A stretch of DNA of 64,000 nt. It comes from Lamellibrachia satsuma. Lineage: Eukaryota > Annelida > Polychaeta > Sabellida > Siboglinidae. This document shows positions 1,535 to 53,400 of the stretch, one piece after another (the stretch's first letter is position 1; every line of letters starts with the position of its first letter). The notes below the pieces were generated by a model, which did not search any database, had not been told where the DNA came from, and saw nothing but the letters and a program-made list of their open reading frames with translations. Location: assembly GCA_033239005.1 (NCBI GenBank), contig BSQZ01000028.1, positions 6,440,411 to 6,504,410 of the forward strand, in the 5' to 3' direction. Both the position numbers and the translations under genes were made by a program.

Positions 1535-2516
1535 AATTCTCCTCTGTGCATCACTTTTGTAGACTTCGAAAAAGATTTCGATAGCGTTGACCATACTGCC
1601 CTTTGGAAGTTACTTGCACATTACTGTATCCTAGAAAGGATTATCGGACTGATCCGTACAACTTATGAACCATCCACTTGCCAGGTTGTCCACAATGGCT
1701 CCTTGACTGAACCCTTCTCCATATTATCAGGAGTCCGCCAAGGATGTCTGCTGTCCCCATTCCTGTTCATGCTGGCAGTTGACTGGATTATGGTATCACT
1801 GTACGAGTCTGCTGCAAAATTGGGTCTGAAGATGAACAAAAAGAAAACCAGGAGTATGAGAGCAAATCACGTAAACAAGAACAGCATCCAGTTGAGGGGT
1901 GAGGCCTAGAAGATGTGGAGCAGTTCACATACCTGGGAAGTGTTGTGAGCAGAGACAGTGGCACAGACCGAGACATCAAAAGCAGGATAGGGAAAGCTAC
2001 AGCAACGTTTCAGACCCTGAGACCCATTTGGACTTCACAGGTCATCTCCATCAAGACCAAACGTCGGATTTTTAGTACCAACGTAAAGTCAGTCCTTCTT
2101 TATGCATGTGAAACATGGCACATAACAAAGGCCTTAACATACAAAATACAGACCTTCATTAACAGATGCTTGAGAGCCATCCTTCACATCAAATAGCATG
2201 ACAAAATCACAAACGAAGAAATCTGGAGAAGAAGAGGACAAGCACAAGCAGAAGCCCAGATCAAGAAAAGAAAGTGGGATTGGTTCGGCCACAGCCTGCG
2301 AAAACCAACGTCCAGTGTGGTATGCCATGCTCTAAAATGGAACCCACAAGGGAAACAGGAGAGAGGAAGACCTGGCTCCACCTGGAGAAGGTCTGTGGAG
2401 ACAAAAGGACAGACGTTGGGACACTCCTGGAGTCAGCTGGAAGTTTTGTCCCGAGACAGGGCCAAGTGGAGGAAGCTTGTGGTTGACCTATGCTCCATAC
2501 GGAGTGCAAGGGTATA

Positions 2517-3240: not shown

Positions 3241-4733
3241 TTGACTTATGCCCTTGTGCCACCATCACTGCTCTCAACTGCGGGGAAAATCCTAGCAAAA
3301 ATCCTTCTGAAAAGACTACAAACAATTGCAGAATTAATTCTCCTTGAAAGCCAGTGTGGGTTTCGCACCTCACACTCCACAATTGACATGATATTCACCT
3401 TGCGGCAGCTACAGGAAAAAGCTATTGAACAACAACAAAGCCTCTACATGATTTTTATTGACTTGTCAAAGGCATTCGACACAGTGGACAGATCAACCCT
3501 GTGGATCTTACTTAGAAGATATGGATGCCCTGAGATGTTTGTCAAGGTAATTCAGGAATTTCACGATGGCATGGCTGGTTCAGTGTCTGTTGGTGGAACA
3601 ATTACAGATCTATTTGAAATTAGTCATGGATTAAAGAAAGGATGCGTCTTGGCACCCACTTTGTTCACTCTCTTTCTTGGAGCAGTACTACCTGCACCAT
3701 CGGAATAGTTGAGTATGGGCGTTTTCATCAAAACTAGAACTGATGAACAGTTATTCAACTTGGCTAGACTGAGAGCAAACGCAAAAACTTGTGAACGTTG
3801 CATTCGTGAACTGCTGTTTGCAGATGATGCTGCTATTGTTGCGCACACACTAGAAGACATCACAGATTCGTAAACATTTTGAACAAGCTGCAACCTTATT
3901 TGGACCTACAATTAGTACAAAGAAAACTGTAACACTCTACCAACCTCCACCTGGACAAACTTCAACCAGTCCACACATTGAAATCTCAGGCACCCCACTA
4001 AAGTCAATAACTTCACATACTTGGGAAGCATGATTGCATCTGACAACACCATCGACATGGAAACTAACAACCATATACATGCTGCCTCAGGAGCCTTTGG
4101 AGGACACTGGAGGCGAGTGTGGTCACAACATGGCATTACAATCTCCACAAAGTGCAAGGTGTACAAGGTGATTGTACTACCAACACTCAGCTGAGATGTG
4201 TACTCTCTACCATTGTCACATCAGAAAACTTTCCCAAGTGCATCTCCGGCGTCTACGACAAATCCTTCGGATCTCATGGAAAGACCACATTGCAAACGTT
4301 AGAAGTGTTGAGACAGGCCAACATGTTAAGTATAGAAGCCATTCTGACTGCATCCCAACTCCACTGGACTGGACATGTTACCTTGAATGAGCAGCGATAG
4401 ACTCCCAAAGGCAGCGGGAAACGCCTTCGTGGTGGACGTTTGCAATACAAAGATGTGCTAAAACGACATCTCAAAGCTACACACATCCCTGTAAACACCT
4501 GGGAATCCACTGCACATGACCAACAACAGTGGAGGCGGGCCATACATCAGGGAAAGATTCATATAGTAGAAAAGTTAACTCAAAAGTATCAACATGAGCA
4601 TGATCGTCGGTACGGCCTTCTAGGTGCTTCTATACCTACCGTCTTCTGTGATGACTGTGGCAGAGGTTTTGTGGCACAAATAGGCTTGAATTCTCACCGA
4701 AGAGCAAAGCACAAGGATACCCCCCTTCATTGA
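3241..4733 (+). mobile_element. non-LTR retrotransposon with C2H2-like finger at the protein C terminus, broken
   Basis: An open frame at 3241-3708 carries RT blocks: E-S-Q-C-G-F-R, then F-I-D-L-S-K-A-F-D-T-V-D, then LKKGCVLAPTLF. Frame breaks follow. The palm motif survives as F-A-D-D-A-A-I near 3820-3840 in another frame. The tail is readable at 4172-4390 (LRQILRISWKDHI) and 4440-4733. The end of the protein has a Cys-x2-Cys...His-x4-His pattern (CDDCGRGFVAQIGLNSHRRAKH, last His at about 4720), a single zinc finger. Such terminal fingers are known in some LINE groups. Multiple frameshifts show the copy is dead. Confidence 0.85.
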
Positions 4734-4740
4734 TGTTATC

Positions 4741-5396
4741 ATTGAACATGATGGACAGCAAGATTTAAAGGTAGGTAGTCTGATCATTTTGTTTATCGTA
4801 AAAGTCAAATCACATGTTTACATACTGCATGTTGAACTGGGGCAGCCTAATAGGTGGACCATGGTAGCCATGTCGCTCTTATTTGACTTATTTACTACCA
4901 CGGTACTCCCAATTGTGCCTTTTATATGGAAATATACTTGTTTTTATTTTTGCAATGATTGTAGCAACATGGCTCCCCCGAGTGCTGTCTATATAACCAG
5001 GTCTGCCCTAGTCTGCCCATTAGGGTGGCCCTGCTGAATGGCAAGGTTCATATTCATAAACAGATAAACACATTTGAGCAGTCAAGATGTTCAATTTACA
5101 ATAGATATATACTATATAACAGGTGATTACAACCTACTTTTAAACAACATATGAAGCACATAAACTTGATTAGTTACGACTCGCACATCACAGAAATGAC
5201 CGTCTCAAAAACTTCATAAGCAGAATACATTTTCTAAAAGTTCTAAAAATAATGTTTTTGTTTGTGTGATTAAATGTGACAAACATAATTATGTACATTT
5301 CTGTTGAGCTTTAAAACATAACTAAATGAAACCAAACACTCGCACACACCAAGTTGTCAGTTAATCACACATAAAGTTGTGCATGAAGAGAGTATA
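4741..5396. other. no gene recognised; probable 3' flank or UTR of the minus-strand death-domain gene
   Basis: This lies directly downstream, in minus-strand sense, of the stop codon at 5397-5399. A minus-strand AATAAA (TTTATT on the plus strand) occurs near 4945 and could be a poly(A) signal. No coding exon is evident. The 3' UTR assignment is inference. Confidence 0.35.
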
Positions 5397-6388: not shown

Positions 6389-6523
6389 CTGTTATGGATG
6401 GCTCTGGCCTGTGCTTGGATTTCACTGTGGGACTTTTGCGAGGGTTTATAACCATTACATTGCCACTGCCAATCTGCACATTACTGGCATGAGAAATGTG
6501 CACGGCGGACTTTATGCCAGACT
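6389..6523 (-). CDS. internal exon with RHIM amyloid motif, upstream of the death-domain exon
   Basis: A 135-nt minus-strand exon is bounded by an acceptor (TTTTGTTGCAG, read on the minus strand) and a donor (CAG then GTAATG). It starts with two bases of a split codon and leaves one base, matching the exon at 5397-5695. The 45 residues include VQIGSGNVMVI, which fits the RHIM core (I/V-Q-I/V/L-G-x-x-N-x-M/L/I). In RIPK1, RIPK3, TRIF, ZBP1 and insect IMD this core nucleates functional amyloid. RHIM followed by a C-terminal death domain matches RIPK1 and IMD. Earlier exons, including any kinase, were not found in this window. No similarity search was possible. Confidence 0.7.
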
Positions 6524-7660
6524 CTGCAACAAAACACAATAGTTGTCACATATCAACAATGGAAAACATCAATCTATAACATTAACACCATCCAGCTCAT
6601 TACAAAACAATATAATGGTGAAAACAAGCATGAACTGTCATCCCCCAAACCACCTGTTGACCTGTACCTAAAGTGAACCCTAGTCTGCCACAGACCTTCA
6701 CCATTCAGTTAACTTTGTTTTGAGATATCTTCTAGTAATTAATGAACTTAAAGCTATACTGTGCTCAGAGACTAAATAAAAGCTAACCCCCAAATATTAT
6801 GTTGTCAGTTTGTCACTATTATATAGAAGTTACAGCACTGAGGAAGAGCATCTAGTACACTTGCCAGGTGTATAAGAGCTGTTCCTTGGGTTGGATTACA
6901 CATAATAATTGACTACCGACATGGAGATACTGAGGTCATTGTATTCAATCCATTCCACAGCCACTCTTACAGTTTACATCAAGTCTGCTCTGTGGCAACA
7001 CCTCATGATGGTTACAACAGTATCAGCTGGCTAAGTCATAGTCAAAGTTATTAATTTTGGCAATATAAAAAATTAAATGGGTAATTAATACAACAAATGT
7101 TATACAATTAGATGTACAAATAAATGTATGAAAATATGTGTACTGCCACAGCATTAATTTTCTTGCAAGTAGTTTTCATGAAAAAGTGAGGAACATCCTC
7201 CACCAATCAACTTTCACTGTTTTTTCATCAGTTTTTAATGCGCTGTGGTGGTTCTGGGTCGCATCAGCGGCGAAATCTCATCAACAGCAACATTTTTGGA
7301 CACTTCTGTGAATTAGTTGATCACTTCACCAGCATAACATTGGTGGCTTCTGCAGCATTACTGCTGTGGCTTTTTGCTTTGTCACTTCAGTAGTGTTGTA
7401 GATGGTTTATGCATGAAAAAAGGCAACAAAGCACATACCCGTTTACATTAATTTTAATAACATAAAATAGATGCTTTAGTAGTAAATAAAAACATTTGCA
7501 AACTATATTCATGGATTATTTTAATATTATTCACATTTGAAATATGCATTTGAAAAATAAAACGTTTTTTTATTCATTTTCAAAATAGTATGTTCGTTTG
7601 ATCATATTGAAGTAACCATATTTGCAATCAAATGCATTTAACAAGTATTTAAGTTTTCAA
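6524..7660. other. no gene recognised (intron or flank of the RHIM gene)
   Basis: I scanned the minus strand for further exons with kinase signatures (His-Arg-Asp, Asp-Phe-Gly) or a clear donor with a long open frame, and saw none. The sequence is AT-rich without an evident tandem array. Confidence 0.4.
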
Positions 7661-26118: not shown

Positions 26119-26483
26119 ATGGCGAAACGCGATCTTTCTAGGACATTCCAAGAGATGGAATCGGAGGATCTAAGCCTGGAAACCACAGTTCCGACAGATT
26201 TGTCACTGACACTCTCGGTGGACGAATTGAGTGACCATACGCACACTCATAATCGAAGGAGGACGCAAAATAAATATTTGATAGAGAGAAAACAGCTTGC
26301 CCACGACTTACAAGTTGTTAAGATTGAATTGTCCCAGAAGTGTCTGATGATTGACAATTTAAAGGCAGACCACATGCAGAAAGTGGATGACTTGGAAGAG
26401 AAACTCAGTGACGCACTCCACCAGAAAAATCTGCTGCAGGCTAAACTCGAATCACAGCTGAAGATAGAACAAGAGGAAGCAAG
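26119..26483 (+). CDS. PIBF1: PIBF1 coding exon 1
   Basis: The ATG at 26119 opens residues 1-121 plus two bases of an Arg codon. The acidic family signature [14 protein letters not shown] sits near residue 14, as in vertebrate PIBF1, which supports this start. The donor is AAG then GTGAGC. The coiled coil begins around residue 55. Confidence 0.93.
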
Positions 26484-32400: not shown

Positions 32401-35400
32401 TCGTTTGATAAGCCAGGGCACATGGTCCTGACATTCCAACTTGTTAGTCAAAGAGCTGGCATCTTCTTTATTCTCTTTGATTTGCCTGGTGTGATGTTGT
32501 CGATCCACTTGTCGAGCAGATACTCTAAGCTCCAAACACCCGTTGAAGTAGGCGGAACATGGCAGGTCAGCACATTATTGGCCATAGGCTGTCCAGCTTG
32601 AGGTGGGCGATAGCTGACCAGTGGGGCACGATGATCCCTCCCACTGTCGGATGCAACCCGTAGCACCCGTTCCCTATGCCAGTTGAGTTGGGCTTATAAC
32701 TTGTAACTGCTTAACATCCTATCCAGAGCACAAGCCTGGTCGAAGTATGAAGAGATCCTGGGTTGCCCAGCGTCAGGATCCCCCTCTCGGCCTCACTGGT
32801 GTAGTTTAAAGGAATGCAATACATTTGGCACCAGTACATTTGTACATTTGGTACTAGTGAGGCTGCAGGAGCTGCCGGAATGATGGCATGGTTGACACCA
32901 AATCGACTTCGGGCTCCATTCTGATAGGTTTACTCCCCTATTGATTTGCCCATAGATGGAATTTGGAATAGTAAGCGCCAGAACATGTCCACACGCTGGA
33001 GGGCCCTGCACACTCAAGGTTCCAACCTGTTCCCCGATCTCCAGCACATTTGCCTGGGGCCGCAAGGTGCCCAGTATCCGCAGTGTACCACAAGGAGGTT
33101 GTGCTAGAGTCTTGTCTATGGAGAGGCTATGTTCCAGCAGATATATGGAAAACACCCAGGCGATTCTAGAAACAAAAGTATTTCAAACAGCTCTTTGAAA
33201 CTTAGCATTTTAAATTTGTTCACCTTTATGTTTTGTAGACGTCAGCAACATCAAATACAACAAGAATTGAGCGCCATTTTGAAGCGTCAACAGCAGCTAG
33301 AGCGAACAAATGAGCGACTCCAAGAGAAAGCAATAGACATTCGACGAAGCCTGCAAGATCTTGAGTTGTCTGAAGGACGCTACCATCAGTTGAAGGCGCA
33401 CAATGAGGCGGAACTGACGCTCAAAGACATTGTTGCTGTGAGTCATACTAACTGATTTGGCAGGATTATAGTCGTCATTAAAAAGTCAAATTCTAATCAT
33501 GGAATCGTTTTCAGTTGAACGTTGACGCCATCTCAAAACATTGATGTTTGATAGCATACAAAAAACTAATTTTTAAATGATATTAAACAAAAATATTTTC
33601 TGTGTGGAGAAGGAGGGTGTTAGCAAGCTGCCATCCAAGCAACAAGCTCCATATAGCAAGTGAACAAGGAAGCCATTGGTGTATCAAGAGTCCAAAAATT
33701 GTTTACCTATGTATATAGTCCCCAATGTAGTGGGGAGGTGAGGGTTTGAGGTTAAATGACCCTGGTTTCATGTAGTCTCATACCTTGATGTAGTGGGGAG
33801 GTGAGGGTTTGAGGTTAAATGACCCTGGTTTCATGTAGTCTCATACCTTGATGTAGTGGGGAGGTGAGGGTTTGAGGTTAAATGACCCTGGTTTCATGTA
33901 GTCTCATACATTGATGTTTTTACATGACTCCTTAGATGTATGTATTTGAATTCATTCTTGAGTGCATCTCTTTGCAGGTGAAGCTGTTTGAGGCTGTTTT
34001 ACCGTGGAAACAGGAGAACAGAGAGCTGAAGACTCGGGTACGCAGTCTGGGAGAAGAGTTACACAAGTGTTGCACAGAGCTGCAAAACTGCAAAGATGTA
34101 CGTAGCTTGGTGCATTGTTCCACATACAAAATGCCTGGCAATAATTCGTTTTAATTCTGTCAAACAAAGCTGAATAGCTCATAAATGATTAAATATACAA
34201 TAAATTCAGATATAATAAATTGAATACGAGTTACACCATGATATAAGTACACAATGAAAGAGTGTTCCAAATTTTTGTCTTCCTTGTCTTTAGAGACCTT
34301 ACAAATACTTAAAATCTAAATGATTTTTTTAAAGAAACTGTTGCATGAGAAATACGTGCATATGCCTGCGTGTGTGGCAGTGAACCATCCTGCTGAGTGT
34401 ATGCGTGGCATTGCAGGCTCTCGAGGAAGAGAAGCGTGTGCATGCCCAGCTGCAGATACAACACCAGAAATTGGCCCTGGCACACGCTGATGTCAAATCT
34501 CAGGTCCAGAATGATAACTACAAGATTGAGAACTACGACAGAGTCAAGAGGTATGTCATGATGACCTGGAGCATTATCTTTGTGTGAAGGGGCCATGATG
34601 ACCTGGAGCATTATCTTTGTGTGAAGGGGCCATGATGACCTGGAGCATTATCTATGTGTGAAGGGGCCATGATGACCTGGAGCATTGGATTTGTGTAGGC
34701 GCCATGATGACCTGGAAGATTGTGTTTGTATATAGGAGCCATGATGACCAGGGGCATTGTTTGAGTGTAGATGCCATGATGACCTGGAAAATTGTGTTTT
34801 TTTATATGCCATGATGACCTGGAGCATCGTGTTTGTGTAGATGCCACGATGACCTGGAGTATCATGTTTGTGTAGATGCCATGATGACCTGGAGCATCGT
34901 GTTTGTGTAGATGCCATGATGACCTAGAGCGTTGTGTTTGTGCAGGTGCCTCGATGACCTAGAACGTTGTGTTTGTGTGGGTGCCTCGATGACCTAGAGC
35001 GTTGTGTTTGTGTAGGTGCCATGATGACCTAGAGCGTTGTGTTTGTGTAGGTGCCTCGATGACCTGGAGTATCGTGTTTGTGTAGGTGCCTCGATGACCT
35101 AGAGCGTTGTGTTTGTGTAGGTGCCATGATGATCTGGAGCATCGTGTTTGTGTAGGTGCCACGATGACCTAGAGCGTTGTGTTTGTGTAGGTGCCACGAT
35201 GACCTAGAGCGTTGTGTTTGTGTAGATGGCTCAATGACCTAGAGCGTTGTGTTTGTGTAGATGGCTCAATGACCTAGAGTATCATGTTTGTGTAGGTGCC
35301 TCGATGACCTAGAGTGTTGTGTTTGTGTAGGTGCCATGATGACCTAGAGTGTTGTGTTTGTGTAGGTGCCACGATGACCTAGAGCGTTGTGTTTGTGTAG

Positions 35401-38400
35401 GTGGCTCGATGACCTAGAACGTTGTGTTTGTGTAGGTGCCACGATGACCTAGAGCGTTGTGTTTGTGTAGGTGCCACGATGACCTAGAGCGTTGTGTTTG
35501 TGTAGGTGCCATGATGACCTGGAGCATTGTGTTTGTGTGTAGGCATCAAGATGACCTGGAACGGGACCTAGCAGACCTTAATAAGCAGCATGGCTACTTG
35601 GTGGCAGCACATGAAGCGGCCATAAGTGAGAGAGACTGCATCAAGGCCGAGGTGAGTGAATATATGGGGCATCCTCCCATCACTCATACATATACGCTGC
35701 CAACCATCAACTAGAAAATAAAACCTGCGTGACACAAATGGAGTAGTCTACAAATGTGCTATTTTCCCTGCTCACAACAATTTTATGGTGCAACAATAGG
35801 ATATACATTGGCACTTTATCCATACATTACATGGAACTGGAAGTGAAATAATCATCTGTGCCCAGCTGAGTGCGTCGAAGCAGACGGCTGTGCTCCTTCA
35901 GCAGGACAAGGAGTTCTTCTCGAAGCAGGCGACAGAACTACAGAACCGCCTGCTCCACTCTGATGACCGACTCACTCAAGTCACTGAGAACCTGGAACGT
36001 ACCAAGCAGGCGCGGGAGGAACTGTATGACAAATACGTCACCTCCAGGTATGTGCTAGAGATAGGAAAGTCAATACGAATTGTAATACCTGCAAGATTTA
36101 TGAATTCTTTTATACCTTATGAACTTTACCACTACCTGTAACCATAAACTCATTTGATAATTTTTTGTGGTGTACTTTAGAAAATGGTCCCCGTGCCTTT
36201 TTATATTATTACTGTACAGGCCTATTTAAATTTTTTATTGAGTACTCTATTTTTAGTTTAGTACTCTATTATTAACAAATCATAAAGTTCCATAACTTCC
36301 ATATAAAAAACAGCAGTTAGAAAACAAATTATATTGTGCTTAGATATGAAATCACAGCATTACATTCTTCCTTATTTAAGACAACGTCATTGTTACAATC
36401 TCTCATTACCACCAATTCACAATTCATATTTGCATAGTCATAGTATGTAGCAGTTACATTTCACATTTCTTTACATTTATACTTAATGGCACTGATAAGC
36501 ACATACAATAGTTCATGGTGTGTCACGTTATATTTGGACATAATGTGTCATACATTCTGGCTCATAGTAGACCTATCAGCAAATGTCATTGTATTTGCTA
36601 TGTAATTAACAACCATTGTCTGACAAGGCTACTGTTCTGTAAAACTATATAAAACTAAAGACCAAAGCAACATCTAAAGATACACATTCAGCAAAGAATG
36701 GTGTTAAATCTCTGTGAACCATGTGGTAGCTTCCATACCTTGCACAAAGCATTAGGCCACTGTATGCACATGTTGTTAACACTGGCATGGCACAGTGGCC
36801 ATAGTTGAGATCCGTACAGTGCACAACAATACTGATGGAACAATTTGTTTTTGACGACAGTTTGAAGTGAACCAAACTCGGGCATAAACCTATTTATGCT
36901 ACAATAACATTTCTTGATACCATCAAACACCATTTCATACTTATTGGTTGTGCTAAGTACATTTCTCAGATGTATTGTTTTCTCACATGTAGAAACATCC
37001 GTACAATTTATTTCAAAATGCGGATTAGCATCCTTCTTGTTATACTCCAATATTTTGCTTTTTGACCCATTACGCAACACATCATGTAGTTTGGCATATT
37101 TTTCACATGCCTCAATAATTTTTTGCAACCTAGAACTAGTAGTGGTGTAATGTCATCTGCATATCATGCAGCTTTGCAGAAAATTTGCTCAATATAACAG
37201 CCAATGCCAAAGTCTTTAGACTCATCTAACAGCCCATCCATGTACAATCCAACTAAGTGGAGACATAACACATCCTTGGCGAACCCCATTCTTCACATTG
37301 AATTGGTTTGACATTACATCATTCCATCTAACCTGTAGTTTCTGGTTCATATACATCTGGAGTAAAAGTCTTACAACTAATGGGCACATACACTTGTCAA
37401 TTAGTTTTTGAAACAGCAAACAATAATTCACTCTATCGAATGCTTTAGAAGCATCAAGTAATAAAACATGCACAGTACTACCATTACTTATGTAATATGA
37501 AATGGCTTCATTTACCATATGTATCAAAAACTCCTGTTTGTTGTTTGACTATAATGGCATCATAAAGCTAGCCTAAGATGATATCTAAGTTCAACGCTCT
37601 GTAGTTATCAGATCTATGATGCACCTTTCTTTTATCATTTGAAGTTTCATCATAGTACTTATCAGTAACTCACTTGGTGATACATCATGAATAAGCATGC
37701 CATTGTAGAGCAAGGTTAATGCTTCTTCTTTTTTCCCATGTTTCATGCAATTTACCCATTTCTAGAGATCACCAATACTGTGCTGCTGATAGCAGTTGTG
37801 ACCATCATCATTATCATAATTTTCATGCATACACATATTAAGGGTAGCCCGTACTTGAAAGCAGTCATGTGATATCTCGGTTAAAACTAGATGTATCTTA
37901 ACCAAATTTGGAACACTTGTTAACTATGTGAACAGTACTTTGTACATCAAATTTCGGCTCATTTGTTTATGGGTTGACATAGCAACGGACATTTGAAAAT
38001 GGCAGGCATAGGTGTATTTGTGAAAAATTTTTGTGAGCTAGCAATTTTGTCTGGAGTAATGCAATTGTCAATGATCATTAGCTAGAATGTCCCTTTATAC
38101 AATGAGATGGTTTTGAGTTGAAATATCAGACTTTTGCAATTGTTGGGAAAGGAGTGTTTACATTGTTTTTTTTCGGACACCTAGGTGTACTGTGCTAGCT
38201 CCCATTTTTAAACAATAATTCTCAGAACAGTCTTATTGTATGCAAGACATGCAGGAACAACTGGTAAAAATTTCAGCTCTTTACTTTACATACTTTTTTT
38301 TACATTTTTTTACAAATTTTACAAATGTTCAAAAAAGTCAATTGGAGAAACAACAAAAAATAAAAATATCTGAAACACTGAATGCATAATGGAAACACAT

Positions 38401-41400
38401 TAACAAAATGCATAAAATTAAATATAAGTATATACTGGGTTCACACAATGAATAAATGCAAGCATTATATACAGGTGCAACATGTTTTATTGTTCACATC
38501 TCATTCATGCAAAGTTTGCACAGTGTCACTACTACGCATCAGGGTCATACAAGTGACCCTCCTCCTCGGACTGTTTTTCATCTGCTTGCATCTTCAGCAG
38601 AGCTTTCCGCTTTCTGCTGGACCTGGTCTCCACTGTGGCAACCACTTCTGCCTTACGCAGCCGTAATGTGTCCTGTCTCTTTGCCAACACACACAGCTGC
38701 GAACTCGGCCCGGCCTGTGGAGCGACAGCATCGACCACTTTGAGCAACATGTCAGATCCTTTGTTGAATTGAACAACACCCATAGCCACTGCTATTTCTA
38801 GTCTTTCACTGCCTTAGGAGCTCTTCTCCATATGGCAGCATGCAGTGACTCGTTCGTGTTTGGCGTGCCGAGGGTCATGCACCGTTCCAACAAGTCATGG
38901 TCAGTCGTGCGTTCAAATAGCGAAACAAGTTGCTCTGATGCATCTCTTGGTATTGGGGCATCGTGTTTCCCCTCCTTCCTCTTCTCCTCTGGGTCCACAC
39001 CCTGAGCCTTGGCCAGCTGGAAGAAGCACCAGTTGATGTCACAGTGGTCATGGTGAGGGTCCTCAACAGTGGAAATGCTGTGGAAGAATATAGCCCAGAT
39101 TGCAGGATGAGTTGCTTCGATGTTGGGCACATGTTTCACAATGGCATTCCTGTAGTATTGCGACCACTTCTTCATCCTTGCACTTGTAAGCTTCCCCTTC
39201 CCACTCAAACTGGTGGTCACTTGCGTCTTTGATGTCTTGCGAGTGTCCTTCCCCTTTGTGCTCGATTCCTTAAACATTTTTTCGAGTCCTTTATACATGC
39301 GTTTTCTCATGTGGCTGATGCATTCCTGTTTTTCAATTGTCACATCAGCACCGTATGGCTGCAGTGTTGGAGTGCAGACAACACTGCAGCATCACCGTCA
39401 CCAAGGATGGATGTGTACTGGGCATCCATCAAGTCCATCGATCTTGCCCACATCACCTTGGCTGCCTCGGTTTCCATGGAACCACTGGAACCGGTGTGGT
39501 TGACATCACAGTTGTCCTGGTGTAGTTCTTGCCACTGCTTCTTCTCTTCCCCTTTCAACTTGTTCTTAACAAGTTAGCATTCATCGCAATACTTTGACTG
39601 GATGACGTAGTCAATGACTAACCCAGTCAAGACCTCAATCACGAACCCGACGCCATGAGCCATCGTAACCCACAGAGGGCAAGGGCCCGTTGCACTCTCC
39701 ATAAATATCCTGGTGCACACGACGTACGTTCTTGTGAGCTTCCATCAGTGCATCATATGCCGTCCCGTACACCAGCTTCTGTTTCAGCGTGTCCAAGATG
39801 GAACTGAATGTCTTGCTGTGGATGCCACCCTTGATGTTCATAAGGGTTGTCAGTCGCACCAAACTGAATGTCTTGCTGTGGATGCCACCCTTGATGTTCA
39901 TAAGGGTTGTCAGTCGCACCAAACTGAATGTCTTGCTGTGGATGCCACCCTTGATGTTCATAAGGGTTGTCAGTCGCACCAAACTGAATGTCTTGCTGTG
40001 GATGCCACCCTTGATGTTCATAAGGGTTGTCAGTCGCACCAAACTGAATGTCTTGCTGTGGATGCCACCCTTGATGTTCATAAGGGTTGTCAGTCGCACC
40101 AAACTGAATGTCTTGCTGTGGATGCCACCATTGATGTTCATAATGGTTGTCAGTCGCACCAAACTGAATGTCTTGCTGTGGATGCCACCATTGATGTTCA
40201 TAAGGGTTGTCAGTCGCACCAAACTGAATGTCTTGCTGTGGATGCCACCCTTGATGTTCATAAGGGTTGTCAGTCGCACCAAACTGAATGTCTTGCTGTG
40301 GATGCCACCCTTGATGTTCATAAGGGTTGTCAGTCGCACCAAACTGAATGTCTTGCTGTGGATGCCACTGTTGATGTTCATAAGGGTTGTCAGTTGCACC
40401 AAACTAAATGTCTTGCTGTGGATGCCACCCTTGATGTTCATAAGGGTTGTCAGTCGCACCAAACTGAATGTCTTGCTGTGGATGCCACCATTGATGTTCA
40501 TAAGGGTTGTCAGTCGCACCAAACTGAATGTCTTGCTGTGGATGCCACCCTTGATGTTTATAAGGGTTGTCAGTCGCACCAAACTGAATGTCTTGCTGTG
40601 GATGCCACCCTTGATGTTCATAAAGGTTGTCAGTCGCACCAAACTGAATGTCTTGCTGTGGATGCCACCCTTGATGTTCATAAGGGTTGTCAGTCGCACC
40701 AAACCTGTCTGGTTGATACCACCTTCGCGGGTTGCGAGTACAGCAAGGTGGTTGATCATGTAGGGCTGTCGAGTAGGGTTGTCACGCACGGGCAGTTGTG
40801 GTGACGAATACACACTTGACAGCTTGGCACTACACTTGTGACACGACAGTTGAAGTTGGACACCGTATCCCTTCACAGCTGTTTCTGTGATATGCAGTGC
40901 TGCCGTGTTGCACTCTGGTCAAGCAAGTGGCTTCACAAGATCGTGCAGCTTGTCTATGTGAAACAACACAAAGTGGGCATCGGAAGATGTCGAGGTCGAG
41001 GCGCTCTCCAAAGTAGGTGCTCTAGGAGACAACAACACAATCTTACGTCGACTGGCAGATGACGTGTGTAGTTCAGTGAGGGACAGAGGCTCAGAGACTG
41101 ACGGCTCGTCGACAGCAACTGAAACAATGAAATATAATAAATAAGTAAACAATAAATAAAATTTTCTCTTCACACAAAGATTATTCAGTTGTTAGTTTTA
41201 TTATCATTCAAACCTAATTGTGTTCATTTGCCCTATTGCGTAGTCTGGCTTAGAGCACTGAATGAATACAAAAACAATTAGCTCAGAGCTAGCAATAAAA
41301 CCGTTGAACCAGTTCTCCTAAATATTTCTAAATTTTATATCAAAACAATAATACTGTACATATTATTATAATGATATAACTGCTATTATGTTACAGCAAA

Positions 41401-44400
41401 CTTATACCACACCATGCCTGATACGAATAATTTTCCTTTGTTTGTGTTCATCGTGCACTGTGCCATGCTTTCTTAGTCACCGTCATGTATAATGTCCATT
41501 TAGCAATTTAATAATATTTTGTCCGCTACAGTTGGGCATTGTATGCCCAACTGTAGCGGACAAAATATTATTAAATTGCTAATTGTCGTCTTTGGTCTGC
41601 CTGCTCCAGGTTTATTTGTTTTCTCTTTTTGACGACAAATCGATGCACATAACTAAATTTTCTTCTTGGTTCCATTGTCTACGCGTTCTGCTAGAAGCGA
41701 CGCCGATTGGCTGACGATGATGTCATCGGCACGCAGAACACGATCATTGGATTAGCAATCTACGCATTATTATAGTGAGCCACTGATAGCTTAACAGGTC
41801 CTTATTTGGTAGTGAGGTAACATAAATTTCTTTCCGAAAAGAGGCATCCAATGAGATTCTAGGAGAACTAGGACGAGACATCCGCAATTAGGTAAACTTC
41901 CAGACAAGACGATAACAAATATGGGGTTCATCAGTTTACATGTTTCTGGTTTCGAACGATCTTTTTGATCACTACTGGACATTTAAAAATGGCTTCCACA
42001 CTGGATTTCGTTTCTCCAATAAAGAGGGGCATGTGATAAACCATGTTATTATTAGTATTTACAGTTCAAATATTGAAAAATGCTGTTACATGGAGTTAGA
42101 TAAGATGATAATGTACCGGAAAATGACATGATCGATTTTTGTTATTATTTCTCGGCCCGCGCCTGGCCTTAATAACAAGATTGTCAACTTTTTAATAAGT
42201 GAGTATTAACTTCATCAAATCCAACAGAATTGTACAATTGTTCAAACTTTGTGAGGAAAATAAGTCAGCAATATATTATATTCAACCTCTGTGGTTGTGA
42301 TTAAAAATAAACTTATTAATTATTGTGAGCTGCATGTATAGAAGAATACATGTTGTCATATCAGTTATATTCTGGCCCCATCTTGTTAGACTTGTGATAT
42401 TATGTGTCAGGAAACAGTATGAGACACCGCTAGTAGTGTACTATGGCATGGACAAGTACTATGTGGGTATGAGACAAAGTTACTAGTGATTGGATGTCAA
42501 TATCGTGTTCCAGGGACCAGTACCGTGCAGGGTATGAGACAAAGTTACTAGTGGTTGAATGTCAATATCATGTTCCAGGGATCAGTACCGTCCAGGGTAT
42601 GAGACAAAGTTACTAGTGATTGGATGTCAATATCATGTTCCAGGGATCAGTACCGTCCAGGGTATGAGACAAAGTTACTAGTGATTGAATGTCAATATCA
42701 TGTTCCAGGGATCAGTACCGTCCAGGGTATGAGACAAAGTTACTAGTGATTGAATGTCAATATCATGTTCCAGGGATCAGTACCGTCCAGGGTATGAGAC
42801 AAAGTTACTAGTGATTGGATGTCAATATCATGTTCCAGGGATCAGTACCGTCCAGGGTATGAGACAAAGTTACTAGTGGTTGGATGTCAATATCATGTTG
42901 CAGGGATCAGTACCGTCCAGGGTATGAGACAAAGTTACTAGTGATTGGATGTCAATATCATGTTCCAGGGATCAGTACCGTCCAGGGTATGAGACAAAGT
43001 TACTAGTGGTTGAATGTCAATATCATGTTCCAGGGACCAGTACCGTCCAGGGTATGAGACAAAGTTACTAGTGGTTGAATGTCAATATCATGTTCCAGGG
43101 ATCAGTACCATGCAGGGTATGAGACAAAGTTACTAGTGGTTGAATGTCAATATCATGTTCCAGTGACCAGTACCGTGCAGGGTATGAGACAAAGTTACTA
43201 GTGATTGGATGTCAATATCGTGTTCCAGGGACCAGTACCGTGCAGGGTATGAGACAAAGTTACTAGTGGTTGAATGTCAATATCATGTTCCAGGGATCAG
43301 TACCGTCCAGGGTATGAGACAAAGTTACTAGTGGTTGAATGTCAATATCATGTTCCAGGGATCAGTACCATGCAGGGTATGAGACAAAGTTACTAGTGGT
43401 TGAATGTCAATATCATGTTCCAGTGACCAGTACCGTGCAGGGTATGAGACAAAGTTACTAGTGGTTGAATGTCAATATCATGTTCCAGTGACCAGTACCG
43501 TGCAGTGTATGAGACAAAGTTACTAGTGGTTAATGTCAATATCATGTTCCAGGGATCAGTACCGTCCAGGGTATGAGACAAAGTTACTAGTGGTTGAATG
43601 TCAATATCATGTTGCAGGGACCAGTATCGTGCAGGGTATGAGACAAAGTTACTAGTGATTGAATGTCAATATCATGTTGCAGGGACCAGTACCGTGCAGG
43701 GTATGAGACAAAGTTACTAGTGGTTGAATGTCAATATCATGTTCCAGTGACCAGTACCATGCAGGGTATGAGACAAAATTACTAGTGGTTGAATGTCAAT
43801 ATCATGTTCCAGTGACCAGTACCGTGCAGTGTATGAGACAAAGTTACTAGTGGTTAATGTCAATATTATGTTCCAGGGATCAGTACCGTGCAGGGTATGA
43901 GACAAAGTTACTAGTGGTTGAATGTCAATATCATGTTGCAAGGACCAGTATCGTGCAGGGTATGAGACAAAGTTACTAGTGGTTGAATGTCAATATCATG
44001 TTCCAGGGATCAGTACTGTGCAGGGTATGAGACAAAGTTACTAGTGGTTGAATGTCAATATCATGTTCCAGTGACCATTACCATGCAGGGTATGAGACAA
44101 AGTTACTAGTGGTTGAATGTCAATATCCTGTTCCAGGGACCAGTACCATGCAGGGTATGAGACAAAGTTACTAGTGGTTGAATGTCAATATCCTGTTCCA
44201 GGGACCAGTACCGTGCAGAGTATGAGTCGAAACTGAGAGATGAGTTGGAACAGATCCGTCTGCGCACCAACACGGAGATCGACCGACTCAAGCATGCCTG
44301 CCATGAGACATACGAGAGGGAAAACAGGTACAGTCATATATAGTTATACATATGCATACATGCATGTGCCCACACACACACACTCATGCACACACACACA

Positions 44401-47400
44401 CGCATGCACACACACGCACACACACATTTTGCCCTAAGTAACCACCATTAACTTTTATTGCTGGTAAAAAATCCTGTCTGAATGCTCCAAAGATTAATTA
44501 ATGAAAATAATTTTTCAGCGCCCCTAATTTCACTTCCTGTCTCTGACTACTGGCAAACATTCTGCCAGCACTAAACCATTTAGGTTCATGACATATCATA
44601 CTAAAATTTTTATTTTAAGCAATAAGATTTAAGATATCCTGTTATGTTTCCACCATAGATGACTCTTATATAATGAAGTACAGAATGTGTGGAAAACCAA
44701 TGATTGTGTAATCGTTGTTATGACTTAATGCTGTGAATGTGTGACTGTGAGGTATGTGTGTGCAGGAGTCTGAGGGAGGCGCGGGACATGGCCCTGGCAG
44801 AGAAAGAACGTGCGCTTGCAACCGAGCAGGACCATAGCACAAAGTATGAACAGCTGATGCACGAGTAAGTACACACACCCACCAACCCACACACCCTTTA
44901 AATTAAATATTTTATTAGTTTTAACACAGTTTTATTTCATGCGTTTGATATAAAGTGCATTGAGCTTTCAAAGGCACCTCTCTAATATAATAATTAATAT
45001 ATTGTTGTGTGACTGCAGGTATCGCCGACTGCAAACGAATAATGACTGTCGCCTGGGGGAGCTGCAGTCAGATGTGAAACTGAAATCGTTTGAGCAGGAA
45101 CGCACATCTATGCTGTATGAAGAGACCGTGCGGTCCCTCAAGGAGGCGCAACTCAACACAGAGAAACTGCAGAAGAAGCTCGAGGTTACAGCAGTACTTA
45201 CATACTTAGTTCTCCAACCTTTGTGAGTTTGTTCCTGGCGTAGTCCATCTTCTTGATTTCTTCCTCTTTTTTCTTCCCTGGATGGATCGTCCACATCTTA
45301 ATATTTTTAAAAAATACATACAAAATACATACATATACATAAAGACTGTTTTACTGCAATTAAAGACCAATAAATCTTCCTTAAACCTTTGAAGGTGATA
45401 TATTATGTTTTATACGATTTCAGGCAGTAGGTATTTTACAGCGATAAAGATTAGTATAACATTGTTAATTTAGGTGTAATTTGAGATCGAAACATTAAGT
45501 GAATTTGGGCATTTTAAGTACATGAAACCCCCACCTAGCTGCATATCAGTTAGCCAATGAAAATTTTTGTGAATTCCTTTATGACTGGCAATACTTATGT
45601 TGATGCAGTGACACTGGTGGTAGTTGCTGACATTGACACTGGTTGTAGGTGCCGACACTGATACTGGTTGTAGGTACTGACACTGACACTGGTTGTAGGT
45701 GCTGACACTGGTTGTAGTTACTGACAGTGACACTGGTTGTAGTTACTGACAGTGACACTGGTTGTATGTGCTCACACTGACACTGGTTGTAGGTACTGAC
45801 ACTGACACTGGTTGTAGGTACTGACAGTGACACTGGTTGTAGGTGCTGACACTGACACTGGTTGTAGGTACTGACACTGACACTGGTTGTAGGTGCTGAC
45901 ACTGACACTGGTTGTAGGTACTGACAGTGACACTGGTTGTAGGTGCTGACAGTGACACTGGTTGTAGTTACTGACACTGATACTGGTTATAGGTGCTGAC
46001 CAAGGAGTACTACGGCCTCCAGATGAGTATGGAGAGACAGGTCGGGGAGCTTGAGTCAACACTGACAGAATGCACACAGAAGTTGGAGTCGTACGAACGA
46101 CTCGAGAATGAACTAGACGCTGTCATCATGCAGGCAGCTGAAGGTTGGTGCTGTGAACATGTGTTATAGTGGAGGATGAGATTGTGTTTATTCGAGGAGG
46201 ATGCTGATAGCAAAAAAAATTATAAAAGCATTGCCATTAACAATATAGGTGGCTCCTACTATAGCAACCATTTTTGTTCTTATTAGGAGTCTCCCATCCC
46301 ATAATTAACATTGATTTCTTATTCTATACTGCACAATGTATTATTTTCAGTTTACTATTTGTCACACTTTTGAATATTTGTATAATCTGGGTTACTGTGT
46401 GAATTATCTGTTGTCATTGGATAAACAAACTCTTCATGATAGCTAACACTGTTTCAGTTGAGAATGAGGCTGATGCCGAGCGAGTTCTCTTCTCCTACGG
46501 CTACGGAGCTAACATACCAACAACCTCCAAGAGACGACTCAAGCAGAGGTGTGTACACTGAACAAACATTCCCTAAACTTGTGTATCAGTAAAATTGCCA
46601 GATATCAGTGGCATATCTAGGATGAAAGGGGAGGCGAAGGGGGGCCTGGCCTACTCAACCCATGCTACCATCTAGCAGCACAATGGAAAATATGGTTAAA
46701 AAAATCAGCCAAGGGTGAGGGTCATGGCCCAGTAGCTTCTCCCTTAAATATGCCCCTGCCAGATATATATCAGAAGCTCAAGTATATCTCGTATCCCTGT
46801 TGCCAATCAGTTCCCTTAACTTTTACACCACTACTGCTTGAAACATATCTGAGTTTGTTGCACTAGCGTTTTGAACCAGTCAGGAAAATTTGGTGCACAA
46901 CATACAACATGTTTGGCGTGGTCATTTTGTTTGAGCATTCTGTGCCACTGGAAACACTGTATTATCCCAGCTACAAGACTTGATTATGCCAATGATTGCT
47001 ACTGAAGAAGGTACACTGGTACTTTATAGACCAAATGAGTTTTGCTGACTAGGATATACTAATGTATAACACCAGTTAAAGTTTTGAGTGTGATGGATGT
47101 AGATGGTATGTTTAGTCTGTTGGATACGCAGACACTTGTGAGATCAATTGTTCATACAGTTATTGAATGACAAGACAATAGATTATGGCCACTATATGAC
47201 AAGGTAACATGTCTGGTTTATGTCTCATAGCAAAATATCCAGAGGTAAAACTAAGTTCTTGATTCAGTGTGTGATGTAAGATGTGGCACGTGATGTGTTG
47301 TGCCATATGATTCGCGTGTGTAGTTAGAAATGTGTTGTATGTGACAGTGTGGATCTGGCACGGCGTGTGTTGCAATTGGAGCGAGCCAACACGTCTCTAC

Positions 47401-50400
47401 GGAAAGAGGTGGAGCGTGAACGCGCACAGCTGAAGGAATACTCTGACAAGGTGATACACAGTTAAAGTAACCTGGCCATTTAACGCTTTTAGTTCTACCT
47501 TCACAGCGAGTGCTTGGCTCTACTCTTAAAATAATGATCAGAATGATCATATAGTCCTACATTTAGTACTACCTTCACAGCGAATGCTTGGCTCTACTCT
47601 TAAAATAATGATCAGAATGATCATATAGTCCTACATTTAGTTCTACCTTCACAGCGAATGCTTGGCTCTACTCTTAAAATAATGATCAGAATGATCATAT
47701 AGTCCTACATTTAGTTCTACCTTCACAGCGAATGCTTGGCTCTACTCTTAAAATAATGATCAGAATGATCATATAGTCCTACATTTAGTTCTACCTTCAC
47801 AGCGAATGCTTGGCTCTACTCTTAAAATAATGATCAGAATGATCATATAGTCCTACATTTAGTACTACCTTCACAGCGAATGCTTGGCTGTACTCTTAAA
47901 ATAATGATCAGAATGATCATATAGTCCTACATTTAGTTCTACCTTCACAGCGAATGCTTGGCTCTACTCTTAAAATAATGATCAGAATGATCATATAGTC
48001 CTACATTTAGTTCTACCTTCACAGCGAGTGCTTGGCTCTACTCTTAAAATAATGATCAGAATGATCATATAGTCCTACATTTAGTTCTACCTTCACAGCG
48101 AGTGCTTGGCTCTACTCTTAAAATAATGATCAGAATGATCATATAGTCCTACATTTAGTTCTACCTTCACAGCGAGTGCTTGGCTCTACTCTTAAAATAA
48201 TGATCAGAATGATCATATAGTCCTACATTTAGTTCTACCTTCACAGCGAGTGCTTGGCTCTACTCTTAAAATAATGATCAGAATGATCATATAGTCCTAC
48301 ATTTAGTTCTACCTTCACAGCGAGTGCTTGGCTCTACTCTTAAAATAATGATCAGAATGATCATATAGTCCTACATTTAGTACTACCTTCACAGCGAATG
48401 CTTGGCTCTACTCTTAAAATAATGATCAGAATGATCACATAGTCCTACATTTAGTTCTACCTTCACAGCGAATGCTTGGCTCTACCCTTAAAATAATGAT
48501 CAGAATGATCACATAGTCCTACATTTAGTTCTACCTTCACAGCGAATGCTTGGCTCTACTCTTAAAATAATGATCAGAATGATCACATAGTCCTACATTT
48601 AGTTCTACCTTCACAGCGAATGCTTGGCTCTACTCTTAAAATAATGATCAGAATGATCATGTAGTCCTACATTTAGTTCTACCTTCACAGCGAATGCTTG
48701 GCTCTACCCTTAAAATAATGATCAGAATGATCACATAGTCCTACATTTAGTTCTACCTTCACAGCGAATGCTTGGCTCTACTCTTAAAATAATGATCAGA
48801 ATGATCATATAGTCCTACATTTAGTTCTACCTTCACAGCGAATGCTTGGCTCTACTCTTAAAATAATGATCAGAATGATCATATAGTCCTACATTTAGTT
48901 CTACCTTCACAGCGAATGCTTGGCTCTACTCTTAAAATAATGATCAGAATGATCATGTAGTCCTACATTTAGTTCTACCTTCACAGCGAATGCTTGGCTC
49001 TACCCTTAAAATAATGATCAGAATGATCACATAGTCCTACATTTAGTTCTACCTTCACAGCGAATGCTTGGCTCTACTCTAAAAATAATGATCAGAATGA
49101 TCACGTAGTCCTACATTTAGTTCTACCTTCACAGCGAGTGCTTGGCTCTACTCTTAAAATAATGATCAGAATGATCATGTAGTGCTACATTTAGTTGTAC
49201 CTTCACAGCGAGTGCTTGGCTCTACTCTTAAAATAATGATCAGAATGATCATATAGTCCTACATTTAGTACTACCTTCACAGCGAATGCTTGGCTCTACT
49301 CTTAAAATAATGATCAGAATGATCATATAGTCCTACATTTAGTTCTACCTTCACAGCAAATGCTTGGCTCTACTCTTAAAATAATGATCAGAATGATCAT
49401 ATAGTCCTACATTTAGTTCTTCCTTCACAGCGAATGCTTGGCTCTACTCTTAAAATAATGATCAGAATGATCATATAGTCCTACATTTAGTTCTACCTTC
49501 ACAGCGAATGCTTGGCTCTACTCTTAAAATAATGATCAGAATGATCATGTAGTCCTACATTTAGTTCTACCTTCACAGCGAGTGATTGGCTCTACTCTTA
49601 AAATAATGATCAGAATGATCATATAGTCCTACATTTAGTTCTACCTTCACAGCGAGTGCTTGGCTCTACTCTTAAAATAATGATCAGAATGATCATATAG
49701 TCCTACATTTAGTTCTACCTTCACAGCGAGTGCTTGGCTCTACTCTTAAAATAATGAACAGAATGATCATATAGTCCTACATTTCAAATGTTGATACAGA
49801 AGTTAATACAAAAACATAACAGATTGATTTAAGAATAGATGCAGAGCAGTCAATATCTCTGAAGTGTTACTGCTTTCTATTTTATGAAAGGTCAATGTAA
49901 ATGTAATAAAGCTGTACCAAAGATAGACAGTCATTCTGGTTGTGTAATCCATGTTTGATAGTACAACAGAAATGGGCAGCTAATTATCTGGTGTATGTGT
50001 ATTGTATATGTATTGTATGTGTATTGCATGTGTATTGCATGTGTGTTGCATGTGTGTTGCATGTGTATTGCATTTGTATTGCATTTGTATTGCCTGTGTA
50101 TTGCATGTGTATTGCATGTGTATTGCATGTGTATTGTATATGTATTGTATGCGATGTGTGATTTAATCAAAAGCATTTGCATAGTAGTCATTTGATTTTT
50201 CAAATTCGAACAATATTAACATAATCCATTAAAATTTAATGAACTCACATACACCTAAGTTATGTTAACTTCAATTAATGAATGAAGTTTATTTCAACAC
50301 AAACAAACAAAGCTGAAAATTACAATTGAATTAGTAATTAGTAATATATGAAAAAGGGATGTCGAAGAAAGGGCAAGAAGGAAGTATATTACTTATAATA

Positions 50401-53400
50401 TTTGCCCTATTGCAGTACATATGATAAGTCATAATAATAATATATACAGTAGCATGGATGATGTACAGTATCAGTTATGCATATATGCAAGACTAGCATA
50501 ATGAGAGTGTTTTAACTAGATATTTATTCTAACCTACCAATAGAAGATACGTGAAAATAATTCAACAGTGCATTTGTAAGTGCACAGGTCCAAATTAAAA
50601 TCAGTTTAGCAAGTGTGGGCACATATGCATAATTTCAGACATTTGCATTTGAAACATCAGCTTACATCTGAACCCATCTGATGACAACATACAAAGTGAT
50701 GTAGAGAGATCCATGTGACTGTTTCAGTTGAAGTCGAGTGAGGATTTGCTGTCCCAGTCGCAACAGCCGTACCATTACCTTGTGCAGACCATAAGAGGCA
50801 AAGACGAACAGTTACGCAGAGAGAAGTCTTGCACCGAGTCGCTCGAGAACAAACTGCAGTGTCTGCATGAGGAGTTCGACGGCCTGACTCGGACCAAGAA
50901 CATGATGGCTGCCGACCTTGAAAGACTCCTTGGGCACTCAGAGGTCAGTAGCACTCGACATCCAATAAAATGCTCTCCATATTAGATCCATTCTTGTGGA
51001 TCAGTGTTCACAGTGACCACTTCTAGATGACTAGTACTAATATAGAATTGGACCTTGTTCCTGTTTGTTTTGTATCTTATTATTTATTTATAATACGACG
51101 ACTGATAAAACTACTGGTGCTACTAAAGGCTGTTGAATGTATCTTAACATGTGTTTCTGTTCTAACAACAGTGTATATGTTCTCGTGCAGGAATTGGCCC
51201 ACATGAAAGACGCTGTGAGAAAACTGGGCACAGTGCCGAAGACCAACAACAAACGAGCATCTGCACTTCAGACCAAAGCTCTGATAGAGTCAATGTTGAG
51301 CAAGAAAGGTTCCTATGGCCAGAAGACTGTGCACATCCAGACGGCTCGTGACGTCCCAACCAAGATGATGCCTGAGAGTGGAGACACAGCACACTCCATG
51401 CCAGCTCCCACTGTGTTTGTAAGTACACATAGCATGTCATTGTCTGTTTGTATGTACACATAGCATGTCATTGTTCTGTTTGTAAGTACACATAGTGTGG
51501 CATTGTTCTGTTTGTATGTACACATAGTGTGGCATTGTTCTGTTTGTATGTACACATAGCATGTCATTGTCTGCTTGTAAGTACACATAGCATGGTAACA
51601 TCTGTTTGTAAGTACACATAGCATGTCATTGTCTGTTTGTAAGTACACATGGCATGTCATTGTCTGTTTGTAAGTACACATAGCATGGTATCATCTGTTT
51701 GTAAGTACACATAGCATGTCATTGTCTGTTTGTAAGTACACATAGCATGTCATTGTCTGTTTGTAAGTACACATAGCATGGCATTGTTCTGCTTGTAAGT
51801 ACACATAGCATGGTATTGTCTGTTTGTAAGTACACATAGCATGGTATCATCTGTTTGTAAGTACACATAGCATGGCATTGTCTGTTTGTAAGTACACATA
51901 GCATGTCATTGTCTGTTTGTAAGTACACATAGCATGGCATTGTTCTGCTTGTAAGTACACATAGCATGGTATTGTCTGTTTGTAAGTACACATAGCATGG
52001 TATCATCTGTTTGTAAGTATACATAGCATGGCATTGTCTGTTTGTAAGTACACATAGCATGTCATTGTCTGTTTGTAAGTACACATAGCATGGCATTGTT
52101 CTGCTTGTAAGTACACATAGCATGTCATTGTCTGTTTGTAAGTACACATAGCATGTCATTGTCTGTTTGTAAGTACACATAGCATGGCATTGTTCTGCTT
52201 GTAAGTACACATAGCATGGCATTGTCTGTTTGTAAGTACACATAGCATGGTATCATCTGTTTGTAAGTACACATAGCATGGCATTGTCTGTTTGTAAGTA
52301 CACATAGCATGGCATTGTTCTGTTTGTATGTACACATAGCATGGCATTGTCAGTTTGTAAGGACACATATCATAACATTGTCTGTGTGTAAGTACACATA
52401 GCATGTCAATGTTTGTTTGTAAGTACATATAGCATGGCATTGTCTGTTTGTATGTACACATAGCATGGCATTGTCTGTTTGTAAGTACACATAGCATGGT
52501 ATCATCTGTTTGTAAGTACACATAGCATGGCATTGTCTGTTTGTAAGTACACATAGCATGGCATTGTTCTGTTTGTATGTACACATAGCATGGCATTGTC
52601 AGTTTGTAAGGACACATATCATAACATTGTCTGTGTGTAAGTACACATAGCATGTCAATGTTTGTTTGTAAGTACATATAGCATGGCATTGTCTGTTTGT
52701 AACTACACATAGCATGGCATTGTCTGTTTGTAAGTACACATAGCATGGCATTGTCTGTAAGTACACAGTATGGCATTGTCTGTTAGGCAGTTACCTTGGT
52801 CTTCGACATAGATGCCAACTCTTACAGTTTACACAGTTTGCTTGAATAAAAATTGGGCCATGGAAAAATTTCAAAGCATCTGTTCTTATAAGCGTACACT
52901 CAAATTTTTTTCTCTGGACAACAAGGTAACTGTTTAACCCTAGTGGTGTCATTTAGTGAATAGTATAGAACAACTGGACAGTGGTGCCACCTGTTTTACA
53001 CCAGATGGCGACACTTTTCAGTTGTTTCACACTAGTCAAATTACAATAATTATGGATCCTGCTGAATAAAAAATGGGATGTATGCTAATTAGGACATGTA
53101 CACTTAATAGGTGGAATACAGTAAGTTTCATGGATTTTCTAAAATTTTATGGTCTTATGGGTGTAGGAGACATTCCTTAAGGCATTTTTGTATTACAGCG
53201 TATGGCCCATATTTGTCAAATGGCAGCAAGTAACAGATCATCTGTTCAAAGCACGAAGAGTGCGTTTAGAGAATATTTTAGCTGTGCGCAGTCAGCTGCC
53301 TCAGTCTTGTAAGATGCAATCAATATATTCCAGTTTGCATGGCGAGGTCCTTTCAAGCATGTGTGGCAATATAGCGAATGTAAATAATGTTATGGGTTTG

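Follow-up and report, generated by a model that had tools for sequence, protein, structure and literature searches.

Introduction

Tandem arrays whose unit contains an exon-intron boundary, with either the 5' or the 3' splice site, have been described as mirages from amphioxus, namely from Adh3, troponin C and the globins BflGb6 and BflGb9 (PMC3087553, PMC3902484); the latter paper names troponin C too and adds PGBD5, with imperfect repeats, as a lancelet case. In the sections of the two papers drawn on here and below, unit lengths of 10–72, 60, 108 and 150–160 nucleotides (nt) are given, the cluster ends are stated to escape homogenisation, and the range comprises cephalochordates. Lancelet mirages were reported to occur without interference with regular splicing, and a mirage-based gain of introns was proposed for the globins (PMC3087553). 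The model of Rogers, as cited in the same sections of PMC3087553, explains intron gain by tandem duplication of a proto-splice site, i.e., by the same duplication of an AG/GT segment. In annelid introns, tandem units of tens of nt are likewise found in intron 1 of earthworm metallothionein; unlike the arrays reported here, these are not described as holding a splice junction in the section consulted (PMC12783039). In the consulted part of the Ridgeia genome paper, tandem repeats figure as an annotation step. Here we describe mirages in the gene PIBF1 of the tubeworm Lamellibrachia satsuma. The gene lies in a stretch of 64,000 nt ("the window", G000:C28:6440411-6504410) of contig C28, in a 735-Mb assembly of 279 contigs.

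A sequence-only reading of the window had found four such arrays in PIBF1 and had stated that no process of this kind was described, which does not hold in view of the lancelet reports (PMC3087553, PMC3902484). Besides these, searches of the literature on annelids, on Lamellibrachia and more widely listed no further description of junction-containing arrays. The tubeworm arrays are therefore regarded as a structure of known type in an additional phylum, on a scale which makes the cause testable. They share with the lancelet mirages the unit which contains the boundary and, in introns 6 and 14, the escape of the cluster ends from homogenisation. They differ by the annelid host, by arrays of up to ~45 copies, by up to six arrays per gene and by a contig which consists to ~12% of minisatellites. 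Unlike in the Rogers model, there is no sign of a new intron here, and the PIBF1 exon edges which were tested are old.

Junction arrays in PIBF1

PIBF1 is encoded on the plus strand by 15 exons (26119 to 53793). Its mirages and the adjoining exons are as follows (a slash marks the junction):

26119–26483, plus strand: exon 1 (with ATG), placed by tblastn of orthologues P0007, P0010 and P0034, by frame and by the donor AAG/GTGAGC
34557–35562, plus strand: intron 4 acceptor mirage, 35-nt unit, ~28 copies; terminal true junction AG/GCATCAAGATGACC at 35543
35543–35651, plus strand: exon 5
42465–44235, plus strand: intron 6 acceptor mirage, 65-nt unit, ~27 copies; terminal true junction TTCCAG/GGACCAGTACC at 44202
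44202–44327, plus strand: exon 7
45609–46000, plus strand: intron 9 acceptor mirage, 25-nt unit, ~16 copies; terminal GGTTATAG/GTGCTGAC at 45993
45993–46143, plus strand: exon 10
51191–51418, plus strand: exon 14
51411–52784, plus strand: intron 14 donor mirage, 31-nt unit, ~44 copies; the array opens with the true donor CTGTGTTT/GTAAGTAC at 51418

The counting scripts took 26482 as the end of exon 1, which had no effect on the counts. Tandem Repeats Finder (TRF) delimited the arrays at 34560–35538 (35 nt × 27.7), 42465–44226 (65 nt × 27.1), 45609–46000 (25 nt × 15.9) and 51414–52784 (31 nt × 44.1) in introns 4, 6, 9 and 14, respectively. Junction-spanning probes aligned with at least 60% identity at 21, 27, 18 and 47 places, in the same order, the few places outside the arrays being attributable to chance. 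The repeated site is the 3' splice site, with the exon start, in introns 4, 6 and 9 and the 5' splice site in intron 14; the exon-derived part of the unit measures ~20, 30, 8 and 5–8 nt. In all four arrays the true junction is the terminal member on the exon side, according to probe alignment and coding continuity. Thus, both of these statements of the sequence-only reading were confirmed by TRF and probes. In intron 4 the TRF array ends 4 nt before the exon because of a 2-nt insertion in the last unit; the probe alignment extends ~20 nt into the exon.

Arrays of this type are difficult to assemble, and the copy numbers may be wrong. Nevertheless, it is highly improbable that the arrays as such are artefacts of the assembly, since the copies bear private differences and similar arrays occur on several contigs. 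In addition, an independent annotation of the locus (P0001, see below) has matching coding sequence, both past the intron 6 array and over introns 9 and 14, although the arrays themselves are not visible there.

At the starts of exons 5, 7 and 10 the protein is free of gaps, in the stretch shown, against 14 orthologues from molluscs to vertebrates. The exon sequence therefore predates the arrays, and it is the repeat which was copied from an older exon edge. The opposite order, i.e., older arrays from which exon edges were recruited by exonisation or intron gain, has a counterpart in the model proposed for lancelet globins (PMC3087553). At the PIBF1 acceptors, all three, this order is contradicted by the gap-free alignment, which ruled out exonisation of array sequence there; elsewhere it could apply, and as a general account we give it hardly any weight. 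Around the end of exon 14 conservation is lower and several orthologue rows carry gaps, so that the statement on age is confined to the three acceptor-side edges. For the myosin and RhoGAP exons treated below, the comparison comprised tblastn matches.

When 243 bases of the intron 4 array were compared with the whole genome, six of eight matches fell in the array itself and two, with 70–72% identity, on contigs C73 and C10; for the intron 6 array all seven returned matches fell in its own array. As judged from this search, which skips common words, the two arrays appear to be nearly or wholly confined to their own locus. A sharing of the exon-like part with unrelated repeats, which had been named as an objection to junction-derived units, was thus not found for introns 4 and 6 in the genome-wide search.

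Junction arrays in other genes

The four arrays had been noted in one gene. The phenomenon is not peculiar to it, since mirages were detected also in three myosin loci and in a RhoGAP gene. Myosin head exons were searched for, with 77 matches, and six loci (on contigs C36, C26, C18, C106, C47 and C2) were read, which had been picked because they were compact and had many exon matches; C36, C26 and C18 were chosen also since large open frames had been seen there. The six loci are not a random sample. Exons were identified by tblastn with 120 myosins, using the best 120 of 7988 hits, and junctions were placed by splice sites. Seven of the 147 junctions of these loci and PIBF1 were placed by protein overlap or guess (C36 717 and 11808; C26 7117 and 9995; C18 7601; C2 6500; C47 7714), and none of these sits at an array. 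Junctions outside the fetched stretches, and a C26 match with stops near 6399–6536, were dropped before counting. In C106, C47 and C2 exons are probably missing between the annotated ones, so that a few junctions there are unseen.

Eleven further mirages were obtained in three of the six myosin loci, at 11 of 119 junctions, compared with 4 of 28 junctions in PIBF1. C36 (myosin VII-like) holds two at donors and one at an acceptor, C18 three of each kind and C106 two at donors. By the tblastn exons, the true junction is the exon-side terminal member here too. No mirage was found on C26, where the locus is muscle myosin heavy chain-like, nor on C47 or C2.

For a survey of the contig, 20 stretches of 10 kb, spaced ~400 kb apart on C28 (L008–L027), were sampled. 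Arrays of at least three copies with a period of at least 10 were counted, and fewer copies or shorter periods were dropped. The samples contained 55 arrays which occupied 24.5 kb, or 12.2% of 200 kb; in the window the proportion is 14.6%, and the array load of PIBF1 is ordinary for the contig. The abundance of minisatellites and their GC-rich units (see below) in the sampled DNA merit a genome-wide account. Pairs of an open frame and an array numbered 42 (21 of the 55 arrays), and those of L016, L011, L012, L014 and L027 were read. L016 was examined because its arrays abut coding frames, and it was kept out of the enrichment test. A gene in this stretch, which has an exon for RhoGAP (PF00620, E 6.9e-15), bears two mirages at acceptors, built of 76-nt and 38-nt units; two of the seven arrays of L016 are at junctions. 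In the first mirage the TRF array stops short of the exon by 28 nt, and its final, degenerate copy was identified by eye. The array at L011:7138, which adjoins an open frame, was rejected as a mirage; it begins ~12 nt after a donor-like site.

The total is 17 mirages (PIBF1, 4; three myosin loci, 11; RhoGAP gene, 2), 8 of them at donors and 9 at acceptors, in five of the eight multi-exon loci which were read, L016 having been picked in the manner just mentioned. Junction arrays are thus not special to PIBF1. Their presence in at least five annelid genes means that the phenomenon recurs in distant animals and is more than a lancelet oddity.

No mutual sequence match was found among the 17 arrays (blastn-short, E<0.01), nor did they match, at E<1e-5, other parts of the window or 190 kb of the sampled DNA (19 of the 20 stretches, L016 left out). 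With no cross-matches, and with the intron 4 and intron 6 arrays apparently nearly or wholly confined to their loci, a common seed or transposon behind the arrays was ruled out. The earlier claim of separate amplifications at exon-intron boundaries, made for four arrays, can consequently be extended to 17.

A side observation concerns the C26 stretch (G000:C26:5857001-5872000), in which the myosin heavy chain is of the muscle type and exons occur as near-duplicates (for example 4678–4770 and 5167–5262 of the stretch). Its 15 kb hold one array of at least three copies (20 nt × 3.2), unlike C18 and C36.

Homogenisation and decoy splice sites

In intron 6 the terminal members have diverged further than the inner copies (0.887 vs. 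0.952), and the same holds for intron 14 (0.915 vs. 0.966; 16 chosen copies each). Terminal members thus escape homogenisation in these two arrays, which were the ones measured.

That each intron would carry many decoy sites was borne out by scoring, for which a generic site matrix written from general knowledge was used. About 192 of 338 decoy copies, a figure which may hold some double counts, were within 1 bit of the true site. Decoys with intact dinucleotides numbered 408 and exceed the 338 copies, since neighbouring sites pass the context test; the count relied on here is therefore that of the equally strong sites. In 16 of the 17 mirages the best decoy, on the same matrix and at one decimal, equalled or surpassed the true site, and therefore position, not strength, would have to decide. 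The cell would need to select, among near-equal decoys, the site which adjoins the exon, in agreement with exon definition. Arrays with up to ~45 sites, many of them near-equal by a simple score, are thus natural tests of splice-site choice.

The length of the unit is not a multiple of three in 15 of the 17 mirages (P 0.044), compared with 35 of 55 arrays in the sampled stretches, which is a weak hint that in-frame decoys are disfavoured. One might suppose that selection keeps mirages, because redundant sites or long junction arrays aid or regulate splicing. The many decoys within 1 bit would agree with this notion, as would the unit lengths, by which the use of a decoy would lead to a frameshift. 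Homogenisation of the arrays suffices, however, to keep decoys intact; unit length, copy number and sequence all differ, with no common element found; and lancelet mirages were reported, in the sections cited, to be harmless to regular splicing (PMC3087553). Maintenance by selection is accordingly considered very unlikely.

Enrichment at junctions and origin of the arrays

The best explanation, which we hold to be probable with some reservation, is a background of GC-biased tandem duplication which is filtered by selection, with the exon-proximal copy being retained by splicing. Short tandem duplications would arise throughout the genome, preferentially in GC-rich DNA, and slippage or unequal exchange would enlarge some of them to arrays. 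If a duplication lay entirely within a host exon, it would alter the protein and be purged by selection. A duplication straddling a junction would keep one intact junction on the exon side; the spliceosome would presumably use the copy beside the exon body (exon definition), and the array would leave with the intron. The messenger RNA would be unchanged, and therefore such a duplication could drift and expand as a neutral variant.

Several observations fit, among them the abundance of arrays on the sampled contig, the unrelated units, the diverged terminal members and the strong decoys described above. The units are richer in GC than their flanks (46.5% vs. 39.3%; Wilcoxon P 1.4e-4, 55 arrays), and the exons of the seven loci, i.e., PIBF1 and the six myosin loci, have a GC content of 49–53%. 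By comparison of coordinates, none of the 36 arrays in these loci lies wholly within an annotated exon, against 4.8 expected for uniform seeding, 7.3 for GC-weighted seeding and 8.7 at the upper slope (see below). Arrays do occur inside transposon coding frames of the window (1269–1536 and 39802–40704), where selection on host exons is absent and arrays survive. The near-equality of donors and acceptors (8 vs. 9) fits a process which is blind to the motif.

The enrichment test covered the seven loci. In the null model, arrays were collapsed to one unit and seeds were placed at random over each locus, wholly exonic positions being excluded; the ends of arrays were given a tolerance of 6 nt, which was required for intron 4 of PIBF1. 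For the GC weighting a single parameter was fitted on 55 arrays, and effects of coding sequence may be understated by it. Since the loci were not drawn at random, all P values are indicative.

The counts pose a difficulty for a background process. A junction is included in 15 of 36 arrays, against 4.28 expected for uniform seeding (P 2.3e-6), and in 11 of 27 when PIBF1 is left out, against 3.70 (P 2.8e-4). With GC-weighted seeding the excess is reduced, not removed; the expectations are 5.95 of the 15 (P 1.4e-4) and, without PIBF1, 5.19 of the 11 (P 0.0056). A roughly two- to two-and-a-half-fold excess thus remains, and the model explains ~6 of 15 junction arrays, which is under half. The excess is also uneven, being concentrated in PIBF1, C36, C18 and C106 and absent from C26, C47 and C2. 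Finally, of the 46 myosin matches that remained, the eight highest in rank were read with flanks of 200 nt and showed no mirage at ~15 visible junctions; in two of them (L039 and L041) arrays start ~15 nt and ~85 nt past the donors. All these points weigh against the explanation preferred here. A simpler estimate gave expectations of 5.50 (P 5.9e-5) and, without PIBF1, of 4.66 (P 0.0023).

The residual excess could reflect a hotspot at junctions, or a preference for coding-like sequence beyond GC. In the former case transcription, splicing or the chromatin of exon edges would provoke breaks or slips, and their repair would make tandem copies on top of the background. The excess left after GC weighting, with and without PIBF1, speaks for such hotspots, as do the two junction arrays among seven in L016, although that stretch was examined because its arrays abut coding frames. 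On the other hand, donors and acceptors are hit about equally, so that no single splice motif accounts for the pattern. The GC model has one parameter, and at its upper 95% slope the expectation rises to 6.93 (P 8e-4) or, without PIBF1, to 6.08 (P 0.02). By the simpler estimate without PIBF1, C36 and C18, two of eight arrays include a junction against 0.64 expected (P 0.13). Moreover, the loci are few and not random, and the eight further exons count here as well. We therefore regard junction hotspots as a tentative second choice. The wider proposition, that junctions are real hotspots of tandem duplication, in excess of what composition and selection produce, through a process tied to transcription or splicing and that lancelet and tubeworm mirages are independent outcomes of one general mutational mechanism, is likewise conceivable at best as a minority view.

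Filtered background duplication is thus retained as the leading account, and a by-product of a repeat-prone genome is more likely than a splice-directed process. The idea of the sequence-only reading that splice sites seed the arrays may hold for the junction arrays in excess of random expectation. It is not needed for all of them, since in this minisatellite-rich genome GC-weighted random seeding covers 5.95 of 15. It had been added that a lack of junctions in most intronic arrays would speak against seeding; taken narrowly this is the case, as 21 of 36 do lack one, yet the share with a junction is still above chance. With its many arrays, the tubeworm genome lets the cause of mirages be tested statistically.

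Effects on annotation

The top protein match of PIBF1 was LSAT2_008339 (P0001) of L. satsuma, with identity of 422/422 aligned residues. The window is accordingly assigned to L. satsuma, a siboglinid annelid, or to a very close relative, and a lancelet origin, which the literature on mirages had suggested, was rejected by this protein search. This published model is without PIBF1 exons 1–6; it begins with MSISCS, followed by RDQYRAEY, at an ATG in the last repeat unit of intron 6, and therefore the mirage seems to have derailed the annotation. Mirages can mislead gene prediction in this manner, and gene models of L. satsuma may often break at them. Past PIBF1, the protein matches the window downstream (137 residues at 99.3%, 104 at 100%), with a sequence which may be that of a reverse transcriptase. 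A Pfam scan of PIBF1 gave no family over the cut-off (two matches, E 0.13 and 0.25). Viral contigs scanned with a PIBF1 exon gave no match, which is uninformative.

Other arrays and transposon frames in the window

Of the nine arrays in the PIBF1 span, counted by the thresholds given above, five are without a junction. One, with a 26-nt unit, is in intron 1; the others are:

33725–33917, plus strand: intron 2 minisatellite, no junction, 63 nt × 3.1
39802–40704, no strand assigned: intron 6 minisatellite in a minus-strand Mutator-like transposon frame, no junction, 60 nt × 15.1
47488–49784, plus strand: intron 12 minisatellite, no junction, 74 nt × 31, beginning 38 nt inside the intron
49995–50151, plus strand: intron 12 minisatellite, no junction, 11 nt × 14

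The Mutator-like transposon of intron 6 is represented by two frames on the minus strand, 39635–40876 and 38798–39343. With the array collapsed to one unit the former matched PF20700 with E 4.6e-10, and the other frame with 2.3e-6. The minus-strand frame is open across all copies of the 60-nt × 15 array; two plus-strand frames are open across it too, and therefore openness by itself is no proof.

At 1269–1536 of the window, a 66-nt × 4 in-frame duplication lies inside a frame with a match to reverse transcriptase (PF00078, 24.7 bits, under the Pfam cut-off of 29.6). An unexpected match to a TOPLESS zinc finger over the repeat (38.1 bits) is probably spurious. The duplication represents another minisatellite which was seeded within transposon coding sequence.

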